This document shows positions 32,778 through 38,256 of a stretch of DNA of 38,256 nt, one piece after another. Origin of the DNA: a virus; IMG/VR virus record IMGVR_UViG_3300037246_000393, positions 1 to 38,256 of that record; one strand, given 5' to 3'. The notes under the pieces are model-generated. The model was given only the letters and a program-made list of their open reading frames with translations, searched no databases and had not been told where the DNA came from. The first letter of the stretch is position 1. The number at the start of each line of letters is the position of its first letter. The translations under genes were made by a program, and so were the position numbers.

Positions 32778-33027
32778 TAGAAGCCTTTGTCACAAATCCA
32801 GTAGGTCCGTCATGGAAGAAGTTTGTCTTGACTCGTTTGAAGAACAGCTCGTCCTCTTCTTTAGTCGCTACTTCTTTAACAAACTGAGCGAGTGATCTAC
32901 CCTTCGTGTCAACTGCATGAAAAGCAATGAGCCACAGCATAGAGTCACGGTTGCTAACAAACAGCTCGTGAGTTTCTGGCCGCACTCGCTTATGGTAGTA
33001 TTGCTTGCGAATTTCTTTAACTGTCAT
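32734..33027 (-). CDS. small protein of unknown function
   Basis: A 97-aa product with KQYYHKRVRPETHELFVSNR, then DSMLWLIAFHAVDTKG and SLAQFVKEVATKEEDELFFK. It is helical and contains many charged and aromatic residues. ATG overlaps the stop of the metallopeptidase gene as ATGA, with AAGGAG upstream, so the two are coupled. Nothing in the sequence identifies a function. Confidence 0.65.
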   Translation of the reverse strand: MTVKEIRKQYYHKRVRPETHELFVSNRDSMLWLIAFHAVDTKGRSLAQFVKEVATKEEDELFFKRVKTNFFHDGPTGFVTKASNDDPKQSGDKAKVV

Positions 33028-33380
33028 AGTTTACACTCCTTCACACATAATCGTGTCAATGGGTATTCAAAAAGTTGGCTGACAAATTCGCTATTGCCAC
33101 CTGCCATTTTAGTTTTGCCCAGTGTAGCAATGTGGATCATCTCGTGGATCAAAACTTGAGCCGGAGATATATCATTCACTTTGCACTGTTTATTATTTAG
33201 TCTTATGGCGGCATTGAAGCTACTGTCATATACAAGAACTTCACCTACAGTTTTATAAGTGTCAGCATGAGTTTCTAGCTGAATGTCCCAGTCCATGAGT
33301 CTCAATATTTTCTTTGTCCACTTTAAACATTGGAGTAATTCACGCTTGGTCCATTTATCATATGGTAATTGGTTAACCAT
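33024..33380 (-). CDS. SprT-like zinc metallopeptidase domain protein
   Basis: A 118-aa product. The HExxH motif is in VLIHEMIHIAT (about 77-87), where the two His and the Glu would bind zinc and activate water. The upstream part (LKWTKKILRLMDWDIQLETH, YDSSFNAAIRLNNKQ) matches the small SprT-like / phage metallopeptidase layout of W-(D/K)I(Q)L, beta strands and then HExxH. Substrate unknown; SprT-like domains usually act on protein-DNA complexes. CGGAGAAAAATACG precedes the ATG. It is the first substantial gene of the late operon. Confidence 0.7.
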   Translation of the reverse strand: MVNQLPYDKWTKRELLQCLKWTKKILRLMDWDIQLETHADTYKTVGEVLVYDSSFNAAIRLNNKQCKVNDISPAQVLIHEMIHIATLGKTKMAGGNSEFVSQLFEYPLTRLCVKECKL

Positions 33381-33404
33381 CGTATTTTTCTCCGTTAGTT
33401 TAAA

Positions 33405-33479
33405 TTACTTGCCGGGGCCGTCCTTCAGATCAGGATTATTATTAGCTTGACTCTTTATATATTTAGTATTATTAGTCAT
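33405..33479 (-). CDS. possible micro-ORF at the head of the late operon (uncertain)
   Basis: A 24-codon frame reads MTNNTKYIKSQANNNPDLKD and ends GPGK. AAGGGA lies ten bases upstream of its ATG. It precedes the metallopeptidase gene by 24 bases. It is too short to judge by composition, could be a leader peptide, and the call depends only on start, SD and position. Confidence 0.3.
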   Translation of the reverse strand: MTNNTKYIKSQANNNPDLKDGPGK

Positions 33480-34367
33480 CTATCCATAATCCCTTGTGAA
33501 AAAACATACCCCCTCTATATAATACCCCCTGACTATAGCGATTCTACCAGTTTAGCCAGAAAAATCTTATAATATTTTGAAAATAGTTACTATTGTTGAA
33601 CTTTTCCTGAAAATCAAGCTTACGCCTGTAAGTTAATTCCTGTAATGAGTATACAACGCTCATATAGTAGCATATGAAAAGCTCACTACATTTGTATTGT
33701 AAATTCGACGTATAAGTGGCCTTAGTAGACCTGATTATAATGATGTCTATTATTAAAAAATTACATTATTTATGCGTTCCTATTAAGGGTCCCATCGGCC
33801 CACGTGACAAAGGATCAAGGGTGACACCCGGGGGGTTAGACCTCTTGGGTTACAACTACTTGCCTACATCTCACGCACTATATCTCTATAACTATACACT
33901 ATAGTATACTTAATAATAGACCACCCACTACATGTAGTATGTTTTGCCTATATATAGGGCTTAACCCACTACATCTAGGACAAACGTGTTATAACCTATT
34001 CACTAGCATCATTGGAGTGCACACACAAGATGTGGGTCATCACTATCCAGAACACACTTTAAACACTTACATACACTACACTTACGACGATATGCACACT
34101 GCACACACAGTTTGAGTTAGTCCCATATATACATAGCTACCCTATACTGCCTTATTGAGTCTACTACTATAGCCCTATACCTCTTTTATATCTATACTCT
34201 AACATTAGAAAAATAAGAGTTGTATGTGCATATTGATATAAAGCCATTGATTATAAGAGTTTACAGTCCACACACAACTTTTCAACCTTCGTTATTGTAT
34301 GTGTAACGTATGTGCATCTATACTATTCTATGTGCATTTATTTATTTTTGCTTTATTTAATTATTTA
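33480..34367 (+). other. AT-rich divergent intergenic region, candidate origin/control region
   Basis: About 890 bases between the leftward late operon and the rightward small-gene arm hold no convincing gene. They contain two copies of ATACCCCCT 16 bases apart (33506, 33522); the 12-base perfect palindromes ACTACATGTAGT (33927-33938) and CCTATATATAGG (33947-33958); the palindrome AGTATACT (33903); two copies of CCCACTACAT (33924, 33965); three exact copies of TATGTGCAT (34223, 34309, 34329) with one variant at 34298; and a very AT-rich stretch (34335-34395). A short GC-rich island is at 33785-33860. This mix is typical of phage origins or regulatory hubs; no DnaA box was seen. Confidence 0.6.
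34223..34337 (+). repeat. TATGTGCAT short direct repeats (iteron-like)
   Basis: TATGTGCAT occurs at 34223-34231, 34309-34317 and 34329-34337, with TATGTGTAA at 34298-34306. An inverted ATGCACA lies near 34091. The repeats end against an AT-rich tract that leads into the first of the three matched promoters, so they may bind an initiator or regulator. Confidence 0.5.
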
Positions 34368-34397
34368 TTGAACAACTAATAATAATAAATGTATAAG
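34368..34397 (+). promoter_or_regulatory. promoter P1 of the right arm (TTGAAC-N18-TATAAG)
   Basis: TTGAAC at 34368-34373 and TATAAG at 34392-34397 are 18 bases apart, preceding the small membrane gene at 34443. The same hexamers and spacing occur at P2 and P3, which makes chance unlikely. The AT-rich run before it may help opening. Confidence 0.75.
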
Positions 34398-34442
34398 GTT
34401 GTGAAGTAAGATATTTAACAATTAAATAATTGAGGTGATAAG

Positions 34443-34520
34443 GTGGGAAATTTAGTCGCTGCTACTGTAATAGTAATTATTGCTATTTGGTGGGCAATAA
34501 CAAGTTTCAAGGACTATTAA
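34443..34520 (+). CDS. 25-aa single-helix membrane peptide
   Basis: GTG-started, reading MGNLVAATVIVIIAIWWAIT then SFKDY: one transmembrane helix and a tiny cytoplasmic-type tail. The GTG is supported because the preceding cassette has identical spacing to the ATG of the other two copies. It is the first gene after promoter P1. Tiny membrane peptides often alter host membrane or transport functions or act in lysis timing; which applies is unknown. Confidence 0.65.
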   Translation: MGNLVAATVIVIIAIWWAITSFKDY

Positions 34521-34537
34521 ATAATTGAGGTGATAAC

Positions 34538-34738
34538 ATGGAATTGAACGACTCATACTGTTTTAATATGGTGCAAGCAGATCAGGCTTTAGGTAATGGA
34601 TTGTTATTCAGTGCAAAGAAATTCATTGATGAAGCAGAAAAGTTTGCTGATTGTGAGTATGCAAAAAACGAAGTAATTGAAGCACGTGAAATATTAAGAG
34701 TAGAATCAATTAAGGTATTGGCCGAACGTTCTAAATAA
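34538..34738 (+). CDS. small helical acidic protein of unknown function
   Basis: A 66-aa product reading MELNDSYCFNMVQADQALGN, then GLLFSAKKFIDEAEKFAD, CEYAKNEVIEAREILRVE and a short end. It is predicted to be helical, like a small TPR-like or helical-hairpin unit. It starts exactly one base after the second leader cassette. No family recognised; position suggests an early accessory role. Confidence 0.75.
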   Translation: MELNDSYCFNMVQADQALGNGLLFSAKKFIDEAEKFADCEYAKNEVIEAREILRVESIKVLAERSK

Positions 34739-34751
34739 TTGAGGTGATAAA

Positions 34752-34823
34752 ATGGAAATGGGCATAGTGTTTTTAATTATGTTATCGTTTGTCAAACTAT
34801 TAAACAAGTGGGGGATATTATGA
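34752..34823 (+). CDS. 23-aa membrane peptide
   Basis: MEMGIVFLIMLSFVKLLNKW followed by GIL: a single hydrophobic helix with basic end. It starts after the third leader cassette and its stop overlaps the next ATG (ATGA at 34820-34823), so translation is coupled to the paralogue gene downstream. Confidence 0.6.
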   Translation: MEMGIVFLIMLSFVKLLNKWGIL

Positions 34824-35020
34824 GTAGTCTTGAATCACATTATCATATCAATGTCGCTAAGCATAGTGATAAATACTCTTTAGGAGTACACTATTTCGCC
34901 GTTGACGAAGTGAACAAAGTCAAGGCTGAAACAATATTTGCTGATTTGAAAGTCAAATTTCCTGATTGTAATGTTAGTGTTACCTATTGGGATATAGGGG
35001 GAACATCTCTTGACTGGTAA
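34820..35020 (+). CDS. mini-protein, paralogue of the gene at 36911
   Basis: The 66-aa product (MSSLESHYHINVAKHSDKYS and on, with VHYFAVDEVNKVKAETIFAD and CNVSVTYWDIGG) matches the 78-aa product at 36911 along its whole length: SHY(H/C)IN(V/I)AK, then HYFAVD/HHFAID, and (V/I)SVT(Y/H)W(D/N)I. It is an alpha/beta mini-protein with conserved His and Trp. I prefer the ATG at 34820, which has GGGGGA upstream and overlaps the previous stop, over a GTG at 34808. Function unknown; two paralogues in the same arm suggest a retained role. Confidence 0.75.
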   Translation: MSSLESHYHINVAKHSDKYSLGVHYFAVDEVNKVKAETIFADLKVKFPDCNVSVTYWDIGGTSLDW

Positions 35021-35038
35021 CAATTTCAAGTTTTTATT

Positions 35039-35071
35039 CGATAACATTTGAACAAATTATAAGTGTTATCG
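35039..35071 (+). repeat. inverted repeat at promoter P2 (operator candidate)
   Basis: CGATAACA at 35039-35046 and TGTTATCG at 35064-35071 are perfect inverted arms separated by 17 bases. The left arm ends one base before the TTGAAC and the right arm ends directly before TATAAG of P2. Such placement fits binding of a dimeric repressor across the promoter. Confidence 0.6.
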
Positions 35072-35077
35072 TATAAG
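35048..35077 (+). promoter_or_regulatory. promoter P2 of the right arm (TTGAAC-N18-TATAAG)
   Basis: TTGAAC at 35048-35053 and TATAAG at 35072-35077, 18 bases apart, in the gap before the gene at 35121. Upstream bases TTTGAACAAA and the CGTATAA around the -10 are shared with P3. The inverted repeat spans it. Confidence 0.78.
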
Positions 35078-35120
35078 TATTTGAAATGCTCTTTAAAACT
35101 TAATAATATGAGGTGATGCA

Positions 35121-35309
35121 ATGGATACCAAAATTCTCGTTCGCACAAAGAACGTTTACGGTAAAGATTTAGTCTATCCTGCTAATGAACAAGCTGAACA
35201 TTTTACGCATCTTACAGGAAAGAAAACATTTTCACGTTCTGACATTGTAAGGCTTGAGGCAATTGGTTTTGAGGTTACAAACTTGTCATTTACCAGTAAT
35301 CAATTTTAA
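35121..35309 (+). CDS. small conserved-looking protein of unknown function
   Basis: A 62-aa product starting MDTKILVRTKNVYGKDLVYP. The second half (HLTGKKTFSRSDIVRLEAIG) contains a helix that ends in a GFEV strand. It is reminiscent of small phage-borne regulators, but without a definite HTH. It lies 43 bases after promoter P2, preceded by a GAGGTGAT leader related to the repeated cassette. Role unknown. Confidence 0.7.
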   Translation: MDTKILVRTKNVYGKDLVYPANEQAEHFTHLTGKKTFSRSDIVRLEAIGFEVTNLSFTSNQF

Positions 35310-35321
35310 TTTGAAAATAGT

Positions 35322-35351
35322 TTGAACAAAAATAATTGCTGATCGTATAAC
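35322..35351 (+). promoter_or_regulatory. promoter P3 of the right arm (TTGAAC-N18-TATAAC)
   Basis: TTGAAC at 35322-35327 and TATAAC at 35346-35351, again 18 bases apart, in the intergenic space after the gene at 35121. It shares TTTGAACAAA and CGTATAA with P2. A leader of about 165 bases lies between it and the gene at 35519. Confidence 0.78.
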
Positions 35352-35390
35352 TAACTGAAACAACACAAGCGACAAAGTAAGAGATATTAA

Positions 35391-35466
35391 AAGGAGTATG
35401 CCTTATGAATGACGAATAAAATACTCATTCGGCGGTAGTCGGGTTAAATTGTCTTTGACTATCGCC
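35391..35466 (+). promoter_or_regulatory. leader with four-codon ORF and hairpin (attenuator-like)
   Basis: Downstream of P3, AAGGAG (35391-35396) stands eight bases before ATGAATGACGAATAA, a four-codon frame (MNDE, 35405-35419). It is followed by a ten-pair stem, GGCGGTAGTC (35431-35440) with GACTATCGCC (35457-35466), and an AT-rich run. The set resembles a small leader-peptide attenuator, but regulatory use is inferred. Confidence 0.45.
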
Positions 35467-35518
35467 GTATAAATATTTTACGCTCATTAAAACAATTAAA
35501 TAACTTAGGAGAATTATC

Positions 35519-35806
35519 ATGTGGCAACTAATCAATTGTGAAGCACAAAAATGCACAATGGATGATAGTAAGCATTACACAGTAATCCATTATTGCGGAT
35601 CAGGTCAAGTGAGATGCGACATTATGCGTACTGCGGAAGGTCAAACCGATGAGCCTGTGATGAGCTATAAGGGTTACTTCAAAGATGTTAGGAAATATGT
35701 AGTACGCTTTTTGGAGTACGCTCACATTAGCATGGAACACGCAAGTTATATCGGCGAAGAGCTGGCAAGAGCTGATATACTGAAAGAAGCATACAAGCAA
35801 GACTAG
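35519..35806 (+). CDS. small protein of unknown function
   Basis: A 95-aa product. The N-terminal half is beta-rich with cysteines (WQLINCEAQKCTMDD, TVIHYCGSGQVRCD); the C-terminal half is helical (KDVRKYVVRFLEYAHISMEH, ELARADILKEAYKQD). TAGGAGAATTATC precedes the ATG. It is the first sizeable gene after promoter P3 and its leader hairpin. The Cys pattern (8, 12, 26, 33) might bind metal, but spacing does not match a known zinc motif. Confidence 0.7.
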   Translation: MWQLINCEAQKCTMDDSKHYTVIHYCGSGQVRCDIMRTAEGQTDEPVMSYKGYFKDVRKYVVRFLEYAHISMEHASYIGEELARADILKEAYKQD

Positions 35807-35823
35807 ACCAATTGTTTTACCCA

Positions 35824-35853
35824 TCCTGTGTAGTCTTAACGGGTTACACAGGA
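35824..35853 (+). other. perfect nine-pair hairpin in intergenic RNA
   Basis: TCCTGTGTA (35824-35832) pairs perfectly with TACACAGGA (35845-35853) across a 12-base loop. No T-tract follows, so a terminator is unlikely. It lies between the genes at 35519 and 35880 and may be a processing site or an operator. Confidence 0.55.
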
Positions 35854-35879
35854 CTTATTAAACCGGAAGGGGTAGGATC

Positions 35880-36143
35880 ATGTGTATTGTAATTGATGTT
35901 AGGAACGCTGGTAAAGTTGAGCATGATACTAGCAATGATCCCGAATATATTGGGATCGTAGAAGTTGGTGAAAGTGTATTTTATATCGAGCTACACAAAA
36001 ATGGTTACCTATCAGCGGGTACTGCTTGTAACACTGGTATCATTCACCGTTACAAGCAAAAGTTTGATGATTGTTTCTCGAAAGATGAAAATCTTCAGAG
36101 TTTTATTGAAATGATTGAGCAAAAAGAAGTTGTAAACGTATAA
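35880..36143 (+). CDS. small protein of unknown function
   Basis: An 87-aa alpha/beta product starting MCIVIDVRNAGKVEHDTSND. Strands are visible at PEYIGIVEVGESVFYIELHK and GYLSAGTACNTGIIH, followed by an acidic helix. The start is preceded by a leader (ATTAAACCGGAAGGGGTA) that is closely repeated before the 41-aa gene at 36487. No family recognised. Confidence 0.7.
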   Translation: MCIVIDVRNAGKVEHDTSNDPEYIGIVEVGESVFYIELHKNGYLSAGTACNTGIIHRYKQKFDDCFSKDENLQSFIEMIEQKEVVNV

Positions 36144-36162
36144 TACTTTAGGAGGTAGTATC

Positions 36163-36369
36163 ATGGGATTAGACTATAAGAATATAAGCAAGGGTCAATA
36201 TGTAAATTCGGAATTGACAGAATCAGCAGTAGAAAATAGCAACGTGCGTAGTGATATAGGCGATCAGTGGTATTTACATGTAATCGCCGACTTAGTTAAC
36301 GAGAAAAAAGTCAGTGAGCAAGAGTTTGCGAATATATTTCAAGCACACGTTGAGCCTTTTGATGAATAA
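36163..36369 (+). CDS. small protein of unknown function
   Basis: A 68-aa product: MGLDYKNISKGQYVNSELTE, then SNVRSDIGDQWYLHVIADLV and KKVSEQEFANIFQAHVEPFD. A helix-rich, acidic protein. It follows the AGGAGGTAGTATC leader, identical to that of the gene at 36624; both begin MG. Function unknown. Confidence 0.7.
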   Translation: MGLDYKNISKGQYVNSELTESAVENSNVRSDIGDQWYLHVIADLVNEKKVSEQEFANIFQAHVEPFDE

Positions 36370-36370
36370 T

Positions 36371-36448
36371 TACCTCCTAAGTGATTAGCCTGTAGCAGTG
36401 CTACTTCCGGCATGGGTCGGATGGATCGGTTGCGATGCTGATGACAGG
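36371..36448 (+). other. anti-SD element and structured intergenic RNA
   Basis: TACCTCCTAAG at 36371-36381 is the exact reverse complement of CTTAGGAGGTA, the SD leader at 36895, and ten of its bases pair with the SDs at 36148 and 36609. After it come a perfect hairpin GTAGC-AGT-GCTAC (36392-36404) and an outer CCTGT/ACAGG pair (36389, 36444). The region may fold on neighbouring leaders and control initiation. TGATTAGC and GGTTGCG here recur at 37714 and 37753. Confidence 0.5.
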
Positions 36449-36486
36449 TTTAAGTACGTCAATACAATTAAACCAGAAGGTGTAAC

Positions 36487-36612
36487 ATGCATGAGCTAGA
36501 CTTACAGATTTTAGAAGAAGCACTAGACGTTTTGAAATGCTATAGTGGCGAAGTAGTGTCAGAAGCCATTGAAAATTTAAACATCGTTATTGAGCAAAGT
36601 GACAATCTTTAG
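36487..36612 (+). CDS. 41-aa acidic mini-protein
   Basis: MHELDLQILEEALDVLKCYS, then GEVVSEAIENLNIVIEQSDN and L: an acidic two-helix mini-protein. Its leader (ATTAAACCAGAAGGTGTA) is a near copy of that of the gene at 35880. The stop lies inside the next AGGAGGT cassette. Unknown function; acidic mini-proteins are often inhibitors or DNA mimics, but that is only a possibility. Confidence 0.6.
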   Translation: MHELDLQILEEALDVLKCYSGEVVSEAIENLNIVIEQSDNL

Positions 36613-36623
36613 GAGGTAGTATC

Positions 36624-36899
36624 ATGGGTGTAAACATATCGAAAGAAGAGCGTGACCAGTTTGCAATAGACCTTTACAATGAGACTTTAAAGGCTATAGG
36701 CAAACAGGATCGAATTGAGTACCGAGATTTGATTACGTATTTAAGAGTATTCGTTTTGAACGCTGACAAGTTCGATCAGTATGCCATTAGTTGTAAGCTG
36801 GATTTGGTATTGAATAACATGATCCGGTCAAAAGCAATTGAGTTTTCAGCTGGATTTGAGGGTCAAACAGTGCTAATCGGATTCTCGATCTTATCTTAG
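36624..36899 (+). CDS. small helical protein of unknown function
   Basis: A 91-aa product starting MGVNISKEERDQFAIDLYNE. It is helical throughout (ETLKAIGKQDRIEYRDLITY, LRVFVLNADKFDQYAIS) and ends with a beta pair (FEGQTVLIGFSILS). It has an AGGAGGTAGTATC leader identical to the gene at 36163. Its stop overlaps the following AGGAGGT leader. No known motif. Confidence 0.7.
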   Translation: MGVNISKEERDQFAIDLYNETLKAIGKQDRIEYRDLITYLRVFVLNADKFDQYAISCKLDLVLNNMIRSKAIEFSAGFEGQTVLIGFSILS

Positions 36900-36910
36900 G
36901 AGGTAGACTG

Positions 36911-37147
36911 ATGGATACACTACAATCGCATTACTGCATTAACATTGCAAAACGTAGCAAGGGTTATCGGACTGGCGGATTGTACGACATTGATTCTTAT
37001 ACTCACCACTTCGCAATTGACATAATCCATGAGGATAAGGCGAAAGAGGTATTCAAGGAAATGACAGTTGGTTACCCTCACCCCGAATACCAAATAAGCG
37101 TTACACATTGGAATATAAGCGGAAGGGGCAAAGAATGGAAGCCTTAA
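36911..37147 (+). CDS. mini-protein, paralogue of the gene at 34820
   Basis: The 78-aa product starts MDTLQSHYCINIAKRSKGYR and shares with the 66-aa product at 34820: SHYxIN(V/I)AK(R/H)S, then HHFAID against HYFAVD, KAKEVFKEM against KAETIFADL, and QISVTHWNISG against NVSVTYWDIGG. It has a longer loop (GGLYDIDSYT). Its stop lies inside the next gene. The function of the pair is unknown. Confidence 0.75.
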   Translation: MDTLQSHYCINIAKRSKGYRTGGLYDIDSYTHHFAIDIIHEDKAKEVFKEMTVGYPHPEYQISVTHWNISGRGKEWKP

Positions 37148-37278
37148 CAGAGCATGAAAAAGAGCTGGTCAAGGTGAAAGAGCAATTAGTTATAGCCAGA
37201 AGGACTAACTCTTACCGGATAAACTTATTGCAGACAAGAGAATTTCACTTGGAAAATAAAATTAAAATGAACAGGTGA
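37135..37278 (+). CDS. 47-aa basic coiled-coil peptide
   Basis: MEALTEHEKELVKVKEQLVI, then ARRTNSYRINLLQTREFHLE and NKIKMNR: one long charged helix with heptads. It starts inside the end of the paralogue gene, with GGAAGGGG upstream, so coupled translation is likely. Function unknown. Confidence 0.6.
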   Translation: MEALTEHEKELVKVKEQLVIARRTNSYRINLLQTREFHLENKIKMNR

Positions 37279-37282
37279 CAAG

Positions 37283-37369
37283 ATGTGGCGTATACGAAAG
37301 TGGATCAGGGAAAATATTGATGTACTGGCAATTGTAGCAATGATAGTAGCGTTAACATTTGTATATTAG
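37283..37369 (+). CDS. 28-aa membrane peptide
   Basis: MWRIRKWIRENIDVLAIVAM, then IVALTFVY: a basic start and one C-terminal hydrophobic helix. It begins four bases after the preceding stop. Its SD is weak (ACAGGTGACAAG). Like the peptides at 34443 and 34752 it would be an inner-membrane mini-protein. Confidence 0.55.
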   Translation: MWRIRKWIRENIDVLAIVAMIVALTFVY

Positions 37370-37382
37370 GGGGTAGGCTGAA

Positions 37383-37520
37383 ATGAATGGGAAAACAATT
37401 GAAGTGAAGACGCTTGATGCAATGGTTTGTATTTGCTCAAGGCTAAACAGGTTGGGCGATAACTTTAAGTGTAAGTTTGTAAACGAAGTTTGGATCATCA
37501 CACTGACAGGAGGTTATTAA
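37383..37520 (+). CDS. 45-aa protein of unknown function
   Basis: MNGKTIEVKTLDAMVCICSR, then LNRLGDNFKCKFVNEVWIIT and LTGGY: a small alpha/beta product with three cysteines (CIC and C). GGGGGTAGGCTGAA is upstream. The last codons contain the SD (AGGAGG) of the next gene, so the two are coupled. Confidence 0.6.
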   Translation: MNGKTIEVKTLDAMVCICSRLNRLGDNFKCKFVNEVWIITLTGGY

Positions 37521-37521
37521 G

Positions 37522-37692
37522 ATGGATAGTAAAGTAATCGAAAACCTAATTGCACTCAAGATGTATCACGAAAGCATTGGGTGCGGACTGGCAAAAGCTA
37601 GCCAAGGATCAGAAGTTGAGGATATGTATGTAACTGAAAAGCTGGAAGCATTTGCAAATCGTATGGGCTATGATCTGGTCAAGAAGAAGTAA
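37522..37692 (+). CDS. 56-aa helical protein of unknown function
   Basis: MDSKVIENLIALKMYHESIG, then CGLAKASQGSEVEDMYVTEK and LEAFANRMGYDLVKKK: helical with a basic end. AGGAGG lies nine bases before the ATG, inside the preceding gene. It is the last of the run of mini-genes before the 200-base gap. No family recognised. Confidence 0.65.
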   Translation: MDSKVIENLIALKMYHESIGCGLAKASQGSEVEDMYVTEKLEAFANRMGYDLVKKK

Positions 37693-37893
37693 ACTAAAAT
37701 ATATAACACAGTATGATTAGCTGACTGCTTTGGTATGCTGCATTAGCTACGTGGTTGCGAAAAGATAAACAGTGATCCGGTAAAAGGATCGTTTGGGGAT
37801 ATTGCGGAACGTAAAAGAGCACGAATGACTGCTACTATGTGGCCGAAGAAAACCGAACCAGCTTTTTAACTTTTACTTTAGGAGGTAAATAAA
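37693..37893 (+). other. intergenic region with hairpins and an amber-interrupted frame
   Basis: This 201-base gap holds TAGCT/AGCTA and GATCC/GGATC stems and the TGATTAGC (37714) and GGTTGCG (37753) segments shared with 36382-36434. A frame starting at an ATG (37735) is cut by TAG at 37744-37746 and then stays open for 40 codons (ending at 37869) with protein-like content (GCEKINSDPVKGSFGDIAER). It has no SD. It is most simply a decayed gene or a structured leader of the next gene. Confidence 0.45.
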
Positions 37894-38256
37894 ATGAAGT
37901 GCTTACTAATAGTAGATATGCAGGACTACTTCTTCAGTGAAGAACCTGAAGAGCTAAACAGAAAAATATGCGACAAGATCATTGAGTACAGAGAAGAGCG
38001 TGCACCCATAGTGGTATTGGAGTATAGGGATAATCCTTATGATCCTGACGATGAACGCTGCGGGCCTACTAACGACACGATCAAATATGAGCTAAAGGGG
38101 TATGGGCACTTGGCAGTGTTCGGGAAAGATGACGATGGTGGTGCTGAATTTTTGCGGAATTACTTTGATGAAGTTCAGGATGGAGTTGACGAGATTGAGC
38201 TGGTAGGAGTAAACCTTGATTGTTGCGTGGCTGATACGGCGATAGGGTTAGCCCGG
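37894..38256 (+). CDS. isochorismatase / nicotinamidase-like cysteine hydrolase (3' end outside window)
   Basis: The first 121 codons are visible and the gene runs off the edge. It opens with KCLLIVDMQDYF, which carries the conserved catalytic Asp of the family (VDMQ), has a Lys in AVFGKDDDG (about residue 78) and ends with VGVNLDCCVADTAIG, in which the Cys nucleophile sits in the usual GxxxxxCVxxTA motif. The triad Asp-Lys-Cys is complete. Members hydrolyse isochorismate, nicotinamide or related amides; the substrate cannot be read from this fragment. Preceded by AGGAGGTAAATAAA, the fourth copy of the leader cassette. An auxiliary metabolic role such as NAD salvage is a possibility only. Confidence 0.85.
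   Translation, partial: MKCLLIVDMQDYFFSEEPEELNRKICDKIIEYREERAPIVVLEYRDNPYDPDDERCGPTNDTIKYELKGYGHLAVFGKDDDGGAEFLRNYFDEVQDGVDEIELVGVNLDCCVADTAIGLAR

Follow-up and report, generated by a model that had tools for sequence, protein, structure and literature searches.

Fifteen tiny, fast-changing genes that probably interfere with the bacterial host in an uncultured tailed phage

Host takeover modules and the phage

Many inhibitors of host enzymes and defence systems come from small early phage genes, a main source of such proteins, and most of these genes cannot be annotated. The nearest described analogue of the gene block considered here is the host takeover module of the Bacillus phage SPO1, which consists of 26 mostly small early genes and has promoters and ribosome binding sites typical of highly expressed genes, the genome being much larger and the module occupying 12.4 kb in a terminal region; when expressed alone, 8 of the 26 slow host growth (PMC6873191). 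Structured RNA domains carried by phages are also known, for instance manA and wcaG of cyanophages, which lie in likely 5′ UTRs (PMC2864571).

Our block lies in IMG/VR record IMGVR_UViG_3300037246_000393, a single strand of 38,256 bases from an uncultured phage (the window, meaning the whole stretch analysed). Like the SPO1 module it groups mostly small genes, which have strong ribosome binding sites and few recognisable families, and it plausibly resembles a host takeover module by architecture, on paper. Toxicity was measured for SPO1, whereas the block is likened to it by an architecture read from sequence; own promoters of the SPO1 type are matched by sequence motif only, and structured RNA elements between the genes are a feature that distinguishes the block from the SPO1 module. 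We favour, with a probability of about 60%, a module of small early genes in which a constant backbone carries exchangeable cargo that probably acts on the host, with RNA control in cis.

A terminase search identified relatives with 92% (G002), 87% (G004), 76% (G007) and 51% (G008) identity, the genes of which are labelled g2, g4, g7 and g8. Because G002 and G007 have a 127-base terminal repeat they are probably complete circles, of ~48.1 and 49.4 kb, and the window comes from an uncultured tailed phage of a lineage of ~48 kb, from whose circle it lacks about 10 kb, located between the right and left window ends. Structural genes (terminase, portal, tail) are on the - strand and replication genes on the + strand, where the window encodes an exonuclease, a Sak4-like protein and a primase, and the relatives additionally a DNA polymerase A, a dATP/dGTP diphosphohydrolase and sigma region 4-like HTH proteins. 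The sign of the GC skew flips at about 34 kb and again at about 9 kb, which together with the strand layout suggests that the small genes are the first of the early arm; that they open this early, or replication, arm is what we infer from position, strand and promoters. The region dividing them from the terminase side contains blocks conserved in five contigs, such as AGTAGACC..ATATAAT and TTCCTATTAAGGGTC...CAAGGGT..ACC, and is a possible origin or divergent promoter region.

Searched at the nucleotide level, 50,697 phage records gave no match to the block. The sole terminase relative in a bacterial genome, on a Neptuniibacter MAG contig, is 54% identical, which is too weak to name the host, and we rejected this assignment. 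A phage-encoded SPFH/Band 7 protein (PF01145, E 1.7e-20; L028:3052-3543, in the late arm of G004; L036:4471-4935) has a relative near the terminase in a Neptuniibacter MAG contig. Small sigma-70 region 4-like HTH proteins are found in the relatives' early arm (L027:15501-15905, L025:3138-3605, L029:17312-17545), and the window's counterpart would fall in the missing 10 kb.

Table 1. Features of the block and its surroundings, in window coordinates.
Feature	Position	Strand	Description
Divergent inter-arm region	33381-34442		~1 kb without convincing genes; separates small genes from terminase side
P1 promoter-like motif	34368..34396	+	exact copy of TTGAAC-N17-GTATAA, ahead of m1-m4
m1	34443..34520	+	membrane peptide of 25 aa with a single helix, GTG start; homologue search negative
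m2	34538..34738	+	66 aa; homologue search negative
m3	34752..34823	+	23 aa, membrane peptide; G007 homologues
m4	34820..35020	+	66 aa, m11 paralogue, phrog_18878-like
P2 promoter-like motif	35048..35076	+	exact copy, ahead of m5
m5	35121..35309	+	62 aa; weak G004 homologue (28%)
P3 promoter-like motif	35322..35350	+	exact copy, ahead of m6; also kept in G002
Element A	35430..35467	+	hairpin in the m6 leader, z -3.67
m6	35519..35806	+	95 aa, DUF4346-like (sub-threshold); G002 93%, G004 65%; backbone
Element B	35817..35864	+	48 nt identical in window, G002 and G004; 13-pair hairpin 35824-35853
m7	35880..36143	+	87 aa, cargo position; G002 has another gene here and G004 has none
Weak promoter-like motif	36115..36143	+	one mismatch, overlaps m7 end
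m8	36163..36369	+	68 aa; G002 78%, G004 58%; backbone
Element C	36370..36486	+	anti-SD, 65-nt cloverleaf core 36387-36451, hairpin into next SD
m9	36487..36612	+	41 aa, cargo position; G002 and G004 have other genes here
m10	36624..36899	+	91 aa; G002 66%
m11	36911..37147	+	78 aa, m4 paralogue, absent from relatives
m12	37135..37278	+	47 aa, overlaps m11 end; G002 77%
m13	37283..37369	+	28 aa, cationic start and single membrane helix; G002 43%, G004 weak
m14	37383..37520	+	45 aa, cargo position
m15	37522..37692	+	56 aa, cargo position
Element D	37717..37871	+	~150-nt multibranch RNA, then T run; common to G002
Isochorismatase-fold hydrolase	37894..38256	+	next gene after block, cut by contig end

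Genes, promoter-like motifs and protein families

An initial annotation of this DNA had described a battery of 14 small frames; the battery stands, and the count becomes 15 ORFs (m1-m15) of 23-95 codons, all on the + strand between 34443 and 37692 (Table 1). It had also noted strong SDs, and most ORFs do have them: SDs with at least 5 matching bases precede 11 block ORFs of at least 20 aa, an excess over the mean of 0.98 and maximum of 6 obtained in 200 dinucleotide shuffles. Codon-usage scores exceed those of shuffles (p ≤ 0.028) in 14 of the 15, and the codon usage of the block resembles that of core genes. The one exception, m3, was accepted because it has homologues in G007, two in number, which are 65-70% identical to it with 15 of 23 residues invariant and synonymous sites saturated. 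The three single-helix membrane peptides of the annotation correspond to m1, m3 and m13, each a single hydrophobic helix with a 17-residue mean hydropathy of 2.1-2.5, compared to at most 1.2 for every other product.

The proposal of early-type promoters is likewise consistent with a repeated sigma-70-like motif, TTGAAC-N17-GTATAA, three exact copies of which lie within ~1 kb, all at the block and none elsewhere in the window. When one mismatch at most is allowed, the window as a whole contains 5 matches, where 0.29 are expected and none of the shuffles reached 5. The motif is also present in the corresponding block of G002 and of G004, and the third G002 copy, which overlaps the G002 m13 gene, may be there by chance. 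Most likely, host RNA polymerase would start at three or four of these putative promoters, giving polycistronic messages with strong SDs from which many tiny proteins could be made soon after infection.

That almost none of the products belongs to a recognisable family holds overall, with exceptions in m6 and in the pair m4/m11; the remaining products have only chance-level profile matches. When compared to Pfam, m6 aligns over residues 21-95 to DUF4346 (PF14251) with 23.7 bits, under the curated cut-off of 29.6, and the match is made by all three orthologues; in NCBIfam it aligns to the same C-terminal part of TIGR00284, also under the curated cut-off. In contrast to DUF4346 and the end of TIGR00284, m6 is a stand-alone 95-aa phage protein, for which a protein search found nothing beyond the known relatives. 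It looks more like a metabolic-type domain than an inhibitor, which counts against the explanation we favour. The products of m4 and m11 are paralogues from one phage family, with weak profile matches to phrog_18878 in PHROGs (E 0.027 and 0.061) and, in protein searches, only distant and weak matches to Brevundimonas phages (E 0.008-0.2). They have the motif SHYxxNVAK ... HF ... FPxPxYKxSxTxW in common with proteins of the phages vB_BgoS-Bajun and vB_BpoS-Poludnitsa, and the vB_BgoS-Bajun homologue likewise lies within a run of small hypothetical genes. Unlike the Brevundimonas phage proteins, the family is duplicated in the window phage, and neither m4 nor m11 has a counterpart in the relatives. 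AlphaFold models of m6 (pLDDT 67) and m11 (pLDDT 71) gave no Foldseek match to the PDB at E ≤0.001, and we do not believe the matches above this value to the Rubisco small subunit and to terminase.

The initial annotation read the block as a candidate for host takeover or counter-defence. Position, strand, promoters, SDs, size and turnover argue for the first part, and the nine or ten longest products gave no significant match to a known anti-defence or host-inhibitor family in PHROGs, Pfam, NCBIfam, PADLOC or the PDB, which counts against it and leaves the second part without direct support. Were the cargo mostly to inhibit anti-phage systems, and to be exchanged as host defences change, one would expect the early position and the rapid swapping of single small genes at fixed places that are seen; the adjacent isochorismatase-fold hydrolase could touch nicotinamide metabolism, which is used by some defences. 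This hydrolase scores 35.9 bits against the isochorismatase-like Pfam domain as a cut gene (cut-off 27), and its full-length G004 orthologue (L027:18213-18737, - strand) 49.7. The Asp/Lys/Cys triad (LIVDMQD, VFGKDD, GVNLDCCV), as read from the sequence, is intact, and a nicotinamidase-type enzyme is possible. Since anti-defence families were not matched, and the PADLOC matches of block products, in a library that holds defence and not counter-defence proteins, are partial and near chance, we regard a dedicated counter-defence island as unlikely. The favoured module reading, in which the small proteins would most likely modulate host machinery or defences by binding to them, draws on analogy, position and turnover.

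Backbone and exchanged genes

Comparison with the relatives separates the block from the rest of the genome. Homologues of its 15 genes number 5 in G002, 3 in G004 (m5, m6 and m8) and 1 in G007, with an m13 counterpart in G004 seen in a smaller search only. Of the late genes, 17 of 19 have homologues in each of these three phages, and of the replication genes 8 of 9 in G002 and in G004 and 7 of 9 in G007. Where genes are common their order is m6 - m8 - (m10 - m12) - m13, and differing single genes lie in between. For instance, the slot between m6 and m8 holds m7 in the window, g2_18 in G002 and nothing in G004, that after m8 holds m9, g2_20 or g4_16, and that after m13 holds m14-m15, g2_24 or g4_18, while the m11 slot has a gene in the window only. 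No convincing homology was found between m7 and the G002 genes at nearby places. The backbone in three phages comprises m6, m8 and RNA elements B and C, to which G002 adds m10, m12, m13 and D; under the favoured reading this backbone would stay in place as single adjacent cargo genes are exchanged. The comparison also singles out the first candidates: the backbone genes m6 and m8, the membrane peptides m3 and m13, which are under selection, and the duplicated family m4/m11.

Fast turnover alone fits neutral accessory genes too, and this is a point against our explanation. Mostly neutral or selfish genes, coming and going in a tolerant spot, would account for the many lineage-restricted ORFs, for a tandem duplication in G007 and for homing-endonuclease-like genes in the same arm of G002. 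The shared small genes are under purifying selection, dN being well below dS in comparisons of m3, m6, m8, m10, m12 and m13 with the relatives' homologues. As such selection is seen wherever close homologues exist, and as the genes have strong SDs and core-like codon usage, we consider a neutral origin very improbable. The duplication in G007 (L029, L035) is of a small-gene cassette that carries a 23-aa membrane peptide of the m3 type and a 58-aa protein, the copies being 84% identical.

Structured RNA elements in the spacers

The best-supported new feature of the block lies between its genes, where there are conserved folded RNAs that the initial annotation overlooked. The spacers after m6, m8 and m15 and the leader of m6 are conserved without coding, and all four contain folded elements (A-D in Table 1), the structures of which rest on two to four sequences. 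Sense strands fold better than antisense for B, C and D, and not for A. Element A has no double changes; in G004, G005 and G007 a leader hairpin of similar kind lies ahead of another early gene, one of 250 aa. A second copy of B in G004, ahead of its isochorismatase gene, has two pairs altered on both sides; a reading of B as a DNA operator is disfavoured, since the conserved central G-U pairs favour RNA.

Element C has a core of four helices and 23 pairs (97% of cells paired), of which 7 are altered on both sides compared to a mean of 2.3 in shuffled and 0-1 in slid controls, a test that is somewhat favourable since the structure was drawn from the same sequences. The minimum-energy fold of the window sequence departs from the cloverleaf by ~4 kcal/mol. 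The anti-SD upstream of the cloverleaf reads TTACCTCCTAA in the window and G002 and TACCTCCTAA in G004, and the hairpin running into the next SD uses bases that are also in the closing helix of the cloverleaf. ARAGORN found no tRNA or tmRNA gene at C, and loops of 3, 4 and 8 nt are incompatible with tRNA arms, so we rejected this identity. For element D the window and G002 have 39 consensus pairs, none broken and five altered on both sides. Folded as a single sequence, D has an ordinary energy (z -0.87), and the case for it therefore rests on covariation. Intrinsic terminators were rejected for all four elements, since a scan gave no + strand sites and a T run follows D only.

Rfam families for A-D were absent at E ≤ 1 in a search of the whole window, and a restricted search gave three chance-level matches (E 1-8). 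Strong matches to covariance models R1-R3 are confined to this lineage; among 294 bacterial genomes R1 matched once (E 9.6e-4 per genome), as chance alone would predict. A loose pattern for element C was found in 119 viral stretches, where the two strong model scores are G002 and G004. We rejected the weaker stretches (≤27 bits), which were selected by the same pattern and are mostly GC-rich.

These elements and the manA and wcaG RNAs are alike as structured RNA domains carried by phages. Unlike manA and wcaG, the elements have no Rfam match at E ≤ 1 over the window, and the gene that follows B or C varies from phage to phage. B and C are therefore not riboswitches tied to one gene; the RNA elements keep their position while adjacent genes are exchanged, and B and C behave like fixed components of the early message. 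Most likely the elements would work in cis, on the sense transcript and ahead of the next gene's SD, and so might tune translation, processing or stability; the covariation argues for the structures, and the effect is conjectured. More tentatively, and we hold this as a doubtful possibility, B, C and D could be new classes of phage regulatory RNA that keep early-message control constant while cargo swaps. C would then be a translational switch in which the closing helix of the cloverleaf competes with the hairpin before the next SD, the upstream TTACCTCCTAA being able to mask the SD of the next gene, and D would be a separate RNA of ~150 nt. Folded RNAs that stay fixed while the surrounding genes exchange would indicate that early phage genes are controlled at a level so far unrecognised.

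Internal gene control of the kind these RNAs suggest also bears on whether the block mainly serves the programme of the phage itself, through small regulators of its transcription, replication or translation, as might be supposed from its contiguity with the replication arm and the retention of m6 and m8 in three phages. Core replication functions are conserved across relatives, whereas two thirds of the block genes are absent from the nearest one, and we find such a role rather unlikely. The early module with host-directed cargo remains our preferred reading.

Two further observations concern genes near these features. A small protein with an HExxH-like motif (33024-33380, - strand) is 97% identical in G002 and has a weak SprT-like match (E 1e-4, under the cut-off). 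The early arm of G002 (L025, L023) has four related homing-endonuclease-like genes of the CxxC type (g2_6, g2_25, g2_35 and g2_38), one of which lies directly 3′ of RNA element D, and a related gene is found in G007.
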